This document shows positions 14,318-54,451 of a stretch of 64,000 nucleotides of DNA, in pieces (within the stretch, counting starts at the first letter, position 1; every line of letters starts with the position of its first letter). This stretch comes from Pseudomonas azadiae. Lineage in GTDB: Bacteria; Pseudomonadota; Gammaproteobacteria; Pseudomonadales; Pseudomonadaceae. A program made the position numbers and the translations under genes. Location: contig NZ_JAHSTY010000001.1 of the NCBI RefSeq assembly GCF_019145355.1, positions 3,348,001 through 3,412,000 of the forward strand. The letters run 5' to 3'. Under the pieces are notes generated by a model. That model was not told the origin of the DNA. It ran no database searches and worked only from the letters and a program-made list of their open reading frames with translations.

Positions 14318-16780
14318 TCAGAACAGGTCGATCGGCGCCGCCTCATCCGCCGGCAGCGGGCTGCCCGGCGCAACACCATTGCCCAACTCGTTGACCGACG
14401 GCGGTGTGTCTTCGCTCTTGAACAGCTCGAAGTACGCATTCGGCGTGCTGGGCGAGGCCGCGCGGCCACTGATCGGGTCGATGCGCAGGCTGAGGATGCC
14501 TTCCGGCTCCGGTTGGGTGTGCAGTGGTTTGTCCTTCAAGGCAGCGCCCATGTAGCTCATCCAGATCGGCAGCGCGACGGTGCCACCAAATTCGCGGCGG
14601 CCCAGGCTTTCCGGTTGGTCGTAGCCGGTCCATACGGTTGTCACATAGTCGGCGTTGTAGCCAGAGAACCAGGCATCCTTGGATTCGTTGGTGGTACCGG
14701 TCTTGCCGGCGATATCCGCGCGGCCAAGGGCCATAGCGCGGCGACCGGTGCCCTTCTTGATCACGTCTTCAAGGATGCTGTTGAGGATGTAGGTGGTACG
14801 GCCATCCACGATGCGCTCGGCCACGGCGGGCGTCTGTGATTCAGTAGCGGCAGCGTTGGCGGCCGGCGCAGCGCCCGGGTTTGGCTCGATGGTGATGCCG
14901 CCATTGCTCGGTGCCGCCAGGCCGTCGGTTGCCGCCACACCGTTGACCACGTCACCCGGCACGCGTGGCGGGTTGGCGGTGAACAGGGTGTCGCCGTTGC
15001 GGCTTTCGATCTTGTCGATCAGGTACGGCGCGATCTTGTAGCCGCCGTTGGCAAAGGTGCTCCAGCCGGTGGCGATTTCCATCGGCGTGAGTGTCGCGGT
15101 GCCCAGCGCCAGGGACAGGTTTGGCGGCAGGTCCGACTTGGCGAAGCCAAAGCGCGTCATGTAATCGATGGTCTTGCCCACGCCCATCGCCTGCAGCAGG
15201 CGGATCGACACCAGGTTGCGCGACTTGTACAGCGCCTCGCGGATGCGGATCGGGCCGAGGAAGGTATTGGTGTCGTTCTTCGGACGCCAGACCTTGTCCA
15301 GGTACTCGTCGACAAACACGATCGGTGCATCGTTGACCAGGCTGGCGGCGGTGTAGCCGTTATCCAGCGCGGCGCTGTAAATGAACGGCTTGAAGCTCGA
15401 CCCGGGCTGGCGCTTGGCCTGGATGGCACGGTTGTAGTTGCTTTGCTCGAACGCGAAACCGCCGACCAACGCGCGAATGGCACCGTTCTGCGGGTCCAGG
15501 GACACCAGGGCGCCCTGAGCCAACGGTACCTGGCTGAATTTGAGGCTGTCATCCTTCTGGCGTTGCACGCGGACCAAGTCACCCACCTGCGCCACGTCCG
15601 ATGGCTGCTTGGGCATCGGGCCCATGCTGTTGGTGTTCAGGAACGGGCGTGCCCATTTCATGCTGTCCCACGCCACATGGGCTTCACCGGTGCGGGTCAG
15701 CACCTGCAGGCCGTCTTTCTGAACCTGGGTGACGATGGCCGGCTCCAGGCCGCTGATCGTGCGTTGCTTGCCCAGCTCGGTGGTCCAGGCGCTCAGGGTC
15801 TTGCCCGGCAGGCGCGATTCAGGGCCGCGGTAGCCGTGGCGCTGGTCGTAAGTGATCAGGCCGGAATGCACCGCCTCGTTGGCGATTTCCTGCAGGTCGC
15901 TGGGCACGGTGGTGGTGACACGAAAGCCCTCGGTGTACGCCTCGCTGCCGTAGCGGCCGACCATCTCGGCGCGCGCCATTTCAGCGATGTAGGGGGCGTT
16001 CACTTCCGGCGTCGGTACGTGGTAGCTGGCGTTCAGCGGTTCGGCAACGGCGCTTTCGTAAGCGGCCTGGTCGATCTTGCCCAGCTTGTACATGCGCCCC
16101 AGGATCCAGTCGCGGCGTTCTTTGCTGCGTGCCGGGTTGGCCAGCGGGTTGAAGCGTGAAGGGGCCTTGGGCAGGCCGGCAATCATGGCCATTTGCGCCA
16201 GGCTGGCGTCGCGAATGGACTTGCCATAGTAGACCTGTGACGCCGCTTCGATCCCGTAGGCGCGGTTGCCCAGGTAGATCTTGTTGACGTACAGCTCGAG
16301 GATTTCGTCCTTGGTCAACTGGCGTTCGATCTGCAGCGCCAGGAGGATCTCGGTGGCCTTGCGTGAAAAACTGCGCTCGCTGGTGAGAAAGAAGTTCTTC
16401 GCCACCTGCATGGTGATGGTGCTGCCGCCGGATTGAATGTGTCCGCTTTTTACCAATTGTGTGGCCGCACGCACCAGGCTGCTGGGATCGACGCCATAGT
16501 GGTTGGCAAAATTATCGTCTTCGGCCGAGAGCAGGGCGCTGATGAAATTGGGTGGAATGTCGGCAAAACGGATCGGTGTGCGGCGCATTTCGCCGAACTC
16601 CGCGATCAGTTTTTCATCGCTGCTGTAGACCCGCAAAGGAATCTGCAACTGGATACTTCTAAGGGCCTCTACGGAGGGCAAACCCGGACTAAGGTAGAGG
16701 TAGGCCCCGCTGAACACGAGCAGCAGCCCGCAAACGATGGCGACAATGGAGTACCCGAAAAACTTCAGCAGACGAATCAA
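14318..16780 (-). CDS. mrcA: Penicillin-binding protein 1A (bifunctional peptidoglycan synthase)
   Basis: Inner-membrane class A PBP with glycosyltransferase and transpeptidase activities for peptidoglycan synthesis. It has 820 residues, an N-terminal membrane anchor (about residues 8-30), a GT51 domain with the catalytic AEDDNF motif, an inserted OB-like region, and a transpeptidase domain with SSFKPF (nucleophile Ser), the SRN triad (YKSRNL) and GKTGTT. The start is TTG at 16780, as no ATG exists before the GT domain. It is divergent from pilM, the usual arrangement in pseudomonads, where the gene is also called ponA. Confidence 0.95.
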   Translation of the reverse strand: MIRLLKFFGYSIVAIVCGLLLVFSGAYLYLSPGLPSVEALRSIQLQIPLRVYSSDEKLIAEFGEMRRTPIRFADIPPNFISALLSAEDDNFANHYGVDPSSLVRAATQLVKSGHIQSGGSTITMQVAKNFFLTSERSFSRKATEILLALQIERQLTKDEILELYVNKIYLGNRAYGIEAASQVYYGKSIRDASLAQMAMIAGLPKAPSRFNPLANPARSKERRDWILGRMYKLGKIDQAAYESAVAEPLNASYHVPTPEVNAPYIAEMARAEMVGRYGSEAYTEGFRVTTTVPSDLQEIANEAVHSGLITYDQRHGYRGPESRLPGKTLSAWTTELGKQRTISGLEPAIVTQVQKDGLQVLTRTGEAHVAWDSMKWARPFLNTNSMGPMPKQPSDVAQVGDLVRVQRQKDDSLKFSQVPLAQGALVSLDPQNGAIRALVGGFAFEQSNYNRAIQAKRQPGSSFKPFIYSAALDNGYTAASLVNDAPIVFVDEYLDKVWRPKNDTNTFLGPIRIREALYKSRNLVSIRLLQAMGVGKTIDYMTRFGFAKSDLPPNLSLALGTATLTPMEIATGWSTFANGGYKIAPYLIDKIESRNGDTLFTANPPRVPGDVVNGVAATDGLAAPSNGGITIEPNPGAAPAANAAATESQTPAVAERIVDGRTTYILNSILEDVIKKGTGRRAMALGRADIAGKTGTTNESKDAWFSGYNADYVTTVWTGYDQPESLGRREFGGTVALPIWMSYMGAALKDKPLHTQPEPEGILSLRIDPISGRAASPSTPNAYFELFKSEDTPPSVNELGNGVAPGSPLPADEAAPIDLF

Positions 16781-16998
16781 GGCTTTTGGATTTCCAGAGA
16801 AAAGAATGGGTTAGGCGTCGGGGCGTGCATGGCAAACGATGGATCGACCCGAGCTGCAGATTAAAAGCGGGAAAAAGCGCTGGGCATTAAAGCATTTTTC
16901 AACTTCGGGCGTCATGGGCGCCTGCTCAACAAGTCGACCGAATGCATGGCACGCAGCGGCAATCAGGCGGTATGACCGACAAAGTTTTAGGGAGTTTT

Positions 16999-53670: not shown

Positions 53671-53759
53671 GTGTGGGAGCTGGCTTGCCTGCGATGCAGA
53701 CACCTCGGTGTATCAGGCGCACCGAGTGGATGCCATCGCAGGCAAGCCAGCTCCCACAG
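53671..53759. repeat. REP doublet, type B, left member of an inverted pair
   Basis: Arms GTGGGAGCTGGCTTGCCTGC and complement; the centre contains CACCTCGGTGTATCAGGC. Reverse-complementing the element at 54360 gives almost the same sequence, with two differences across about 86 bases. Confidence 0.9.
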
Positions 53760-53922
53760 GTTGTTCTGCATTTTGGCAGATGGATTTGTCCCACAGAGGC
53801 TGTAGGACGGGTCTGGCAATAAGCCTTGTGCCTTGTAACGTTGCCTACAGCTAAGCCAGAATCGCCCGGCTTGTGCGTCTGGATGGGCTTCTCTTAAGGT
53901 TCTCGGGCCGCTGAATGTTCAG

Positions 53923-54095
53923 TGGTCGGGTTTAGTAGCCCTACCGACCAAAGCATGTGCACCGCTCCAAAGCATGGCGTTTTCTTGCCTATCTTATGGT
54001 GGCTGTACGCAGGGCACCTCCGGGTGCGCCGGTCTTTGCTTTGTTCTCCGGTCTACTAACCTGTGTACAGCTGCCACCCTTCGTTTAGTAGCGAA
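53923..54095 (+). promoter_or_regulatory. Structured leader with two TTTAGTAG loops and a shared complement
   Basis: Hairpin 1: TGGTCGG (53923-53929) pairs with CCGACCA (53944-53950) and its loop contains TTTAGTAG (53931-53938). Hairpin 3: TTCG (54080-54083) and CGAA (54092-54095) close a loop that is exactly TTTAGTAG. Between them CTACTAA (54053-54059) is complementary to both loops. It lies inside a long stem, GGTGGC+TGTAC (53998-54008) with GTACAGCTGCCACC (54065-54078), which also encloses GCACC/GGGTGC. A direct repeat CCAAAGCATG occurs at 53948 and 53967. The rest of the 495-base gap holds a REP doublet and no gene. Confidence 0.55.
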
Positions 54096-54125
54096 AAGGT
54101 GATAGCCCTATCAGAGAACAAATGC

Positions 54126-54350
54126 ATGTCTATTAGTCTTTTCACTGTTGCGCCCAACCTCCCCACCGAAACCCTCGCCCTCAACAGCTACGAAACCTTC
54201 TCTTCCGTCCGTACCTTGCTACTCAACCTGTCCAACGACCTCACCGGCGAGCACCGCGACGTGGCCTTGGCCATCCACCAATTGAGCGAACTCGGCGTAT
54301 TGCTGGTCGGCCAGATGATGGACCGTGAAGCCCCCCTGACCTCAATCTGA
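54126..54350 (+). CDS. Small DUF6124/DUF3077-like protein
   Basis: A 74-residue soluble helical protein, SLFTVAPNLPTETLALN at the start and GEHRDVALAIHQLSELGVLL near the end. It resembles the short DUF6124/DUF3077-type proteins common in Pseudomonas, whose function is unknown; I recognise the LFTVAPN and acidic-helix pattern rather than a firm domain. The ATG at 54126 lacks a good ribosome-binding site. It lies directly behind the structured leader at 53923-54095, which may control its translation, and it is closed off by a REP doublet. Confidence 0.7.
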   Translation: MSISLFTVAPNLPTETLALNSYETFSSVRTLLLNLSNDLTGEHRDVALAIHQLSELGVLLVGQMMDREAPLTSI

Positions 54351-54359
54351 AATGCAATC

Positions 54360-54451
54360 AATGTGGGAGCTGGCTTGCCTGCGATGGCATCAACTCGGTG
54401 TGCCTGATACACCGAGGTGTCTGCATCGCAGGCAAGCCAGCTCCCACATTT
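54360..54451. repeat. REP doublet, type B, right member of an inverted pair
   Basis: Arms as in the element at 53671, but the central sequence (CTCGGTGTGCCTGATACACC) is in the opposite direction. It separates the small gene from the convergent trxC. Confidence 0.9.

Follow-up and report, generated by a model that had tools for sequence, protein, structure and literature searches.

We found that the leader of a small DUF6124 gene in Pseudomonas azadiae is, with high probability, a chromosomal C4 antisense RNA cassette of the phage P1 immI type that likely represses translation of its own DUF6124 mRNA. The gene lies in a stretch of 64,000 nucleotides that we analyzed as a whole (hereafter the window, whose numbering is used throughout). 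Sequence comparison shows the C4 fold, four target sites and their order, the joint change of codes and sites (between paralogs and, for the b code, among orthologs), and selection on the encoded protein.

A search of the whole window against Rfam returned two matches above threshold, one of them to the C4 antisense RNA family (RF01695; 53992–54081, plus strand) with 75.3 bits against a cut-off of 45 and over the full length of the model (positions 1–87 of 87). The three-stem C4 fold with free a' and b' segments was present, closed by GG/CC end pairs, and by analogy with P1 the mature RNA is predicted to span 53998–54078. A permissive Rfam scan placed c4-a1b1 (RF03163), the family describing the a1/b1 targets of C4, at 53894–53946 with 28.9 bits, below its gathering score of 46.7; the upstream a1/b1 pair was recognized by complementarity (7 bp + 7 bp). 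isrK (RF01394) reached 19 of the 50 bits of its threshold at the locus, with no terminator. Under the same models, the P1 stretch scored 68.8 bits for C4 and 51.0 bits for c4-a1b1. The P1 record (AF234172) orders its features as a1, b1, c4 (77 nt), a2, b2 and icd, with the P1 C4 at 344–420 in the stretch L043, and the leader of the DUF6124 gene has this immI order of a1-b1-C4-a2-b2-small gene. The likeness to the C4 system of P1/P7 (immI; RF01695, targets RF03163) thus extends to the fold, the a'/b' codes, the four sites and their order, as well as to a small gene (73–74 aa) that adjoins b2 in both, whereas the Pseudomonas C4 is chromosomal, exists in dozens of copies and is joined to a DUF6124 gene instead of icd-ant. 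The phage location and the icd and ant genes of a P1-type immunity operon were absent from the window locus, which has a single chromosomal DUF6124 gene. Homology of DUF6124 to Icd was considered and rejected, as Icd matches NF033153 and no DUF6124. On the features assessed, the sequence of the window element identifies it as a member of the C4 family. The original prediction had rightly recognized a regulatory RNA in this region but stated that no named RNA family fits; this was mistaken, given that RF01695 does and that the P1 record annotates the same a1, b1, a2 and b2, and an unnamed RNA family is ruled out by the Rfam matches. Elsewhere in the window, Rfam asponA matched at 16508–16801 (159.2 bits).

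All elements of the cassette lie on the plus strand. The predicted start of the leader transcript is marked by promoter-like boxes, TTGTGC / TTAAGG(T), at 53871–53900, which are kept in the alignment of 28 ortholog rows described below; by eye, TATAGT-, CTAGTCT- or TAAGGT-like boxes occur at the same place in other cassettes and in P1. A strict sigma-70 scan gave no match at the window locus, where there is no consensus promoter, and a terminator scan gave no terminator-like site. The leader folds into a first hairpin (GGCCGCUGA-AUGU-UCAGUGGUC, 53906–53927, within the c4-a1b1 match at 53894–53946), followed by the a1 hairpin (53928–53941) with its target TTAGTAG at 53932–53938 (7 bp with a') and by the b1 target CAAAGCA at 53949–53955 (7 bp with b'), the latter in the first copy of a direct repeat. 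Within C4, b' forms the loop of the third stem (54037–54048) and is complementary to b1 and b2, and a' (CTACTAA, 54053–54059) is complementary to a1 and a2. The a2 hairpin, TTCG-TTTAGTAG-CGAA (54080–54095), carries the target TTAGTAG at 54085–54091 (7 bp with a'). The b2 target GAGAACAAA (54114–54122; 9 bp with b') lies over an SD-like GAG, overlaps the ribosome-binding site and ends 3 nt before the start codon at 54126. The putatively regulated gene (54126–54350) encodes a 74-aa DUF6124 protein (PF19619; 90.4 bits with a query that started one codon before the ORF, at 54123) and has as its neighbors a parA-like gene and a convergent trxC-like one. Palindromic repeats (GTGGGAGCTGGCTTGCCTGCGATG...), which we take to be REP-like, flank the cassette on both sides (53674–53760 and 54363–54450); microRNA-family and DUF3800-IV matches at 54361–54450 were both below threshold.

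Much of the original prediction agrees with this anatomy. TTTAGTAG was found at 53931–53938 and 54084–54091 and CTACTAA at 54053–54059, exactly as it had claimed, the ORF of the DUF6124 protein has its start at 54126 as well, and its proposal of two sites competing for one complement by loop pairing proved right for a1 and a2 versus a', with b' (54037–54048) and b2 (54114–54122) having been missed. Two hairpins were recovered as described, but the octamer was not wholly unpaired as their loop: in single-strand RNAfold predictions, U-G and U-A pairs closed inside both TTTAGTAG hairpins, leaving UAGU as the loop. Similarly, the stem-enclosed segment said to contain CTACTAA exists and is the C4 fold, but CTACTAA itself is unpaired, lying between the third stem and the closing stem of C4 (mean unpaired probability 0.99, RNAfold). 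The direct repeat CCAAAGCATG is likewise present (53948–53957 and 53967–53976); its first copy holds b1 and changes jointly with b' in orthologs such as L046, L047, L060 and L061, and the second copy is kept or altered independently. The repeat motif alone is only moderately unusual: dinucleotide shuffling of the 173-nt stretch reproduced the arrangement (a repeated 7-mer with its reverse complement between the copies) in 8 of 5000 trials, but within the actual 64 kb it turned up in 26 of 1277 windows. The motif would not convince on its own; the comparative evidence does.

Next, we examined the C4 copies of the same genome (6.1 Mb, 3 contigs), which yielded 36 C4 matches, all above the cut-off, compared with none in 14 control genomes. 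Across the 36 copies, 951 of 972 base-pair cells of the C4 fold were standard pairs, 12 of 27 pairs had changes on both sides, and the GG start and CC end pairs were present in every copy (36/36). The genome also contains 26 DUF6124 matches, 25 of them above the family cut-off, and 10 DUF3077 matches, three of which fall on genes also matching DUF6124. By position, a DUF6124 gene follows 23 of the 36 C4 copies (one of these genes being below the Pfam cut-off), and a DUF3077 gene follows six others. Among the remaining seven, L002, L006, L011 and L015 have proteins of one family of alike members and L014 and L016 share another; a scan of one member of each family gave no Pfam or NCBIfam match. 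The cassette gene of L019 (G000:C1 near 2982753) encodes a Bro-N domain (PF02498) and neither DUF6124 nor DUF3077; P1 Ant1 has an antirepressor domain, ANT, different from this Bro-N. Conversely, three of the 26 DUF6124 genes (L037–L039) had no nearby C4 match. In L038 (G000:C2:909800-911000, minus strand), a c4-a1b1 match of 62.2 bits at about 650–790 precedes the DUF6124 gene with no C4; on visual comparison, its a1/b1 letters are similar to those of L135, a cassette from a different genome, and C4 may have dropped out between b1 and b2. The DUF6124 gene of L039, likewise lacking C4, has a PrrF RNA match nearby (160.9 bits). Finally, the cassette L029 has a1, a' and b' without an a2 site.

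The 36 cassettes carry 20 distinct a' segments, 36 distinct b' segments and 36 distinct (a',b') pairs. When unrestricted duplex energies were calculated over whole flanks, the own site was best or tied in only 7 (a1), 7 (a2), 8 (b1) and 15 (b2) of 36 cassettes, with the a2/b2 stretch shortened at some loci by a misassigned gene start. For summed energies, the own site was best in 17/36 (a2+b2) and 12/36 (a1+b1), and the own means beat all 5000 permutations. As the own site was best in few loci by this measure, strict specificity or orthogonality was not borne out. Pseudoknot-free cofolding gave no gain for a2/b2, which is expected with loop-loop pairing yet provides no support. Following the weak per-locus result of the duplex-energy test, we compared exact Watson-Crick runs of 7 or more in fixed position windows between own and other-code sites. 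Such runs were found for a1 in 27/36 own versus 16/1190 other-code comparisons, for a2 in 30/36 versus 14/1190, for b1 in 23/36 versus 36/1260 and for b2 in 22/36 versus 57/1260, and none of 2000 shuffled pairings reached the own mean for any of the four sites. The own site was strictly the best against all other-code loci in 19 (a1), 24 (a2), 15 (b1) and 17 (b2) of the 36. The a' of the window is common to seven of the 36 cassettes, itself included, and its address is unique only through b. A second Pseudomonas genome, with 55 C4 matches (52 above the cut-off), gave comparable data: among the best 30 of the 55, own runs were found in 28/30 (a1), 28/30 (a2), 14/30 (b1) and 19/30 (b2), versus 30/828, 21/828, 20/870 and 31/870 for other-code runs, and all 30 (a',b') pairs were distinct. 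Codes and target sites change jointly between paralogs.

We then turned to the orthologs of the window locus. A scan with the window protein gave 156 relatives, from which 80 loci were kept; 26 of these had both parA-like and trxC-like neighbors and one more, L057, which lies at a contig end, had the parA-like one. These 27 loci and the window formed a syntenic set of 28 rows, the other 53 loci lying elsewhere. As the original prediction implied, the loops and their complement were conserved: the two copies of TTTAGTAG and the CTACTAA between them were unchanged in 28/28 rows, all from fluorescens-group-like Pseudomonas. The compensatory changes also implied by it were present in the companion b code of the orthologs, as well as between the paralogs. 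By the analyst's own sorting, the ortholog b code fell into two classes of 15 and 13 rows, with 12 distinct b' segments. b2 paired with its own b' over 6 bp or more in 25/28 rows and in 0/390 comparisons across classes; b1 was weaker, with 6-bp runs in 20/28 own rows versus 62/390 across classes. Eight rows of the first class have an additional C in b', matched by an additional G in b2. b1 matches this additional C fully (9 bp) in four of the eight (L046, L047, L060 and L061); of the other four, L054 has a b1 pairing of 7 bp, whereas that of L049, L067 and L068 is limited to 5 bp. In P. paracarnis V5/DAB/2/5, the orthologous gene (L064) has a shifted frame near its start.

For the window protein, we obtained a dN/dS of 0.043 (mean dN 0.024, dS 0.569; 25 of the 28 ortholog sequences, 50 codons), and on these sequence estimates the gene is under purifying selection. 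AlphaFold predicted a two-helix hairpin (mean pLDDT 84.8, pTM 0.67), for which none of 290 Foldseek matches had an E value at or below 0.001. Among the 50 of 290 matches listed were Rop variants (E 2.5–3.6) and the ferritin-like EncC (E 3.0–3.2); with no significant structural match, we drew no fold-based function for DUF6124 from either.

Across Pseudomonas, where at most 61 best candidates were scored per genome, C4 was present in 54 of 59 genomes, our own included (53 above the cut-off), with a median of 17 copies, 20 or more in 26 genomes, and a maximum of 54. C4 and DUF6124 counts were correlated over the 59 genomes (Spearman 0.88, Pearson 0.86). All five genomes without C4 were also without DUF6124; seven of the 12 genomes without DUF6124 have one to three C4 copies, and some genomes combine many C4 with few DUF6124 (38 and 2 in G009, 28 and 3 in G025). 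A survey of Gammaproteobacteria, scoring the best 15 candidates per genome (by which our own genome gives 15 instead of 36), found C4 in 18 of 274 genomes, our own included; each of the other 17 had between 1 and 6 copies. Of 185 genomes of the class, our own was the only one with a DUF6124 match. One protein cluster among the relatives listed has a Klebsiella name (P0195). Outside the genus, L154 (G319:C9:1000-4500) has four C4 copies in about 1.4 kb, alternating with sub-threshold isrK-like matches.

The available portions of PMC5320573 and PMC12197685 describe how, in P1/P7, RNase P cuts C4 from a longer transcript, with b' covering part of the ribosome-binding sites and a' conferring specificity; in Acinetobacter baumannii, 21 C4-like sRNAs have read patterns fitting the same cut (PMC5320573, in part). 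Extrapolating from these systems, we infer that the leader transcript would be cut, probably by RNase P at the GG at 53998, to release a C4 RNA of ~81 nt, which would then bind a2/b2 on intact transcripts. With b2 over the ribosome-binding site, this pairing would block translation of the own mRNA. By analogy, a1/b1 would probably offer C4 an additional binding site or serve as a decoy, keeping the amount of free C4 down and setting the point at which derepression begins; in Salmonella Gifsy-1, the short IsrK RNA similarly relieves repression of its own mRNA. According to the available text of PMC4825925, IsrK of Gifsy-1 is a terminated leader RNA that activates its own mRNA in trans; a co-expressed downstream RNA piece enhanced, rather than relieved, growth arrest, and the roles of the pieces are left unsettled there. 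IsrK (RF01394) resembles the window locus in that a leader RNA precedes a processed RNA and a small ORF, with a short form that relieves repression of the own mRNA (PMC4825925, in part), and differs in that the window lacks an IsrK-type terminator (19 bits versus a cut-off of 50) and is followed by no antirepressor gene. The private code pairs likely let the 36 cassettes work side by side.

Attenuation of the phage P4 type, in which C4 bound to a1/b1 would stop RNA polymerase before C4 and the gene, appears unlikely at the window locus. In the available text of PMC4825925, the P4 CI RNA with seqA and seqC resembles C4 in that one antisense RNA is flanked, within its own transcript, by two sites complementary to it; it differs in its described action, which is on replication genes through termination of transcription. 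The Rfam matches of the window included no P4 family. Between b1 and C4, 16 of the 36 own cassettes, L001, L018, L019, L025, L033 and L034 among them, have a run of at least five T, a feature that would suit termination; the window cassette has none. Thirteen of the 16 T-runs follow a predicted hairpin of -4 kcal/mol or better, taken as the best of several lengths without a shuffled control. Attenuator-like alternatives were indicated in 11 of the 16 from crude registers, some of them spurious, with L001, L019, L025 and L033 as the four clear cases; here the end of b1 overlaps, in this crude assignment, a strand able to pair with the 5' arm of the terminator. The isrK family, a terminated a1b1-like RNA, also matches corresponding stretches elsewhere, above its cut-off in L157 only. 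At the window locus, however, there is no terminator-like site and isrK attains 19 of 50 bits, and in the orthologs b2 over the ribosome-binding site tracks the code, a match that termination alone does not need. Attenuation may add to control in the other cassettes with T-runs.

A switch acting exclusively in cis, with a' pairing either a1 or a2 within one molecule to open or close the ribosome-binding site and no C4 being released, is a little less probable again. All sites do lie in one leader, and two alternative structures have been described for the Salmonella IsrK read-through mRNA (available text of PMC4825925). Against such a switch, the C4 fold in the central part and the GG/CC ends are kept in 36/36 copies, features that are tied to RNase P release in P1/P7, with such release proposed for A. 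baumannii, and the described mode of the C4 family is that of a released, trans-acting RNA (PMC5320573, available portions). An antisense RNA that is cut from the leader and acts in trans is more likely than either this switch or a protein-binding site, both of which the original prediction had raised.

We consider it improbable that the C4 RNAs are directed in trans against other genes or incoming phages, the role proposed by the authors of the A. baumannii study. C4 does determine immunity in P1/P7 (PMC12197685 and PMC5320573, in part). In a search for exact sites, though, the combined a2 and b2 pattern of the window (TTAGTAG-N10-40-GAACAAA) occurred once in its own genome, at its own mRNA (a reversed control pattern also occurred once), the codes track their own flanking sites in two genomes, and a tblastn search of 50,697 phage and 72,556 plasmid records gave no match to the window protein. 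A decaying prophage remnant without function would fit the clear phage-type anatomy, the loss of a2 in L029 and the DUF6124 gene of L038 that keeps a1b1 without C4, but is scarcely credible because the protein is under selection (dN/dS 0.043) and codes covary in a coordinated manner, with 27 genomes among the 80 loci kept from the protein scan retaining the gene beside the parA-like gene and 26 of them also beside the trxC-like gene.

The repression of the own DUF6124 mRNA by a released C4, which we favor, has its closest chromosomal parallel in the Group 1 C4-like sRNAs of A. baumannii, which are likewise multi-copy and have variable a' loops; this set has 21 members, six of them truncated, and is expressed and apparently processed (PMC5320573, in part). 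It differs in that the paper proposes varied bacterial or phage targets, whereas the Pseudomonas cassettes carry their own targets and a small gene. In the portions of the sources at hand, C4 is recorded for Proteobacteria and phages (PMC2864571), Pseudomonadales are named for C4 (PMC5320573), and isrK and C4 are adjacent in a table of B. cenocepacia RNAs (PMC4603805). The literature searched, seen in part and with subscription papers mostly outside it, contained no link of C4 to DUF6124 or DUF3077 and no description of a Pseudomonas expansion; within the same scope, DUF6124 was not mentioned and DUF3077 had no RNA link. What sets these cassettes apart from known C4 systems is the gene under putative control, its location on the chromosome and the large number of copies with separate codes. 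Taken further, and with doubt and conviction evenly weighed, the data would describe a phage immunity device from which Pseudomonas has built, across its chromosome, a bank of dozens of antisense switches with private addresses. Each C4 RNA would bear a two-word address fitting its own leader; the two words would drift separately, a being common to subfamilies and b particular to a single gene, and every switch would hold back one small protein, mostly of a Pseudomonas-centered helical family, with a1/b1 as decoy.

If true, few single bacterial chromosomes would carry a larger set of self-addressed antisense cassettes (one genome has 55 matches, of which 52 exceed the cut-off). C4 is a classic RNA of phage immunity; in Pseudomonas, its cassettes would provide a natural collection of candidate orthogonal antisense switches in which to study how short loop codes stay specific and change without losing control. 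Our reading also offers an interpretation for the C4-like sRNAs of A. baumannii, whose targets were left open (PMC5320573, in part), namely that they may act on their own leaders. For the DUF6124 and DUF3077 proteins, the C4 link provides a first handle: if the model is right, they would normally be silent, and ordinary expression data may therefore miss them.
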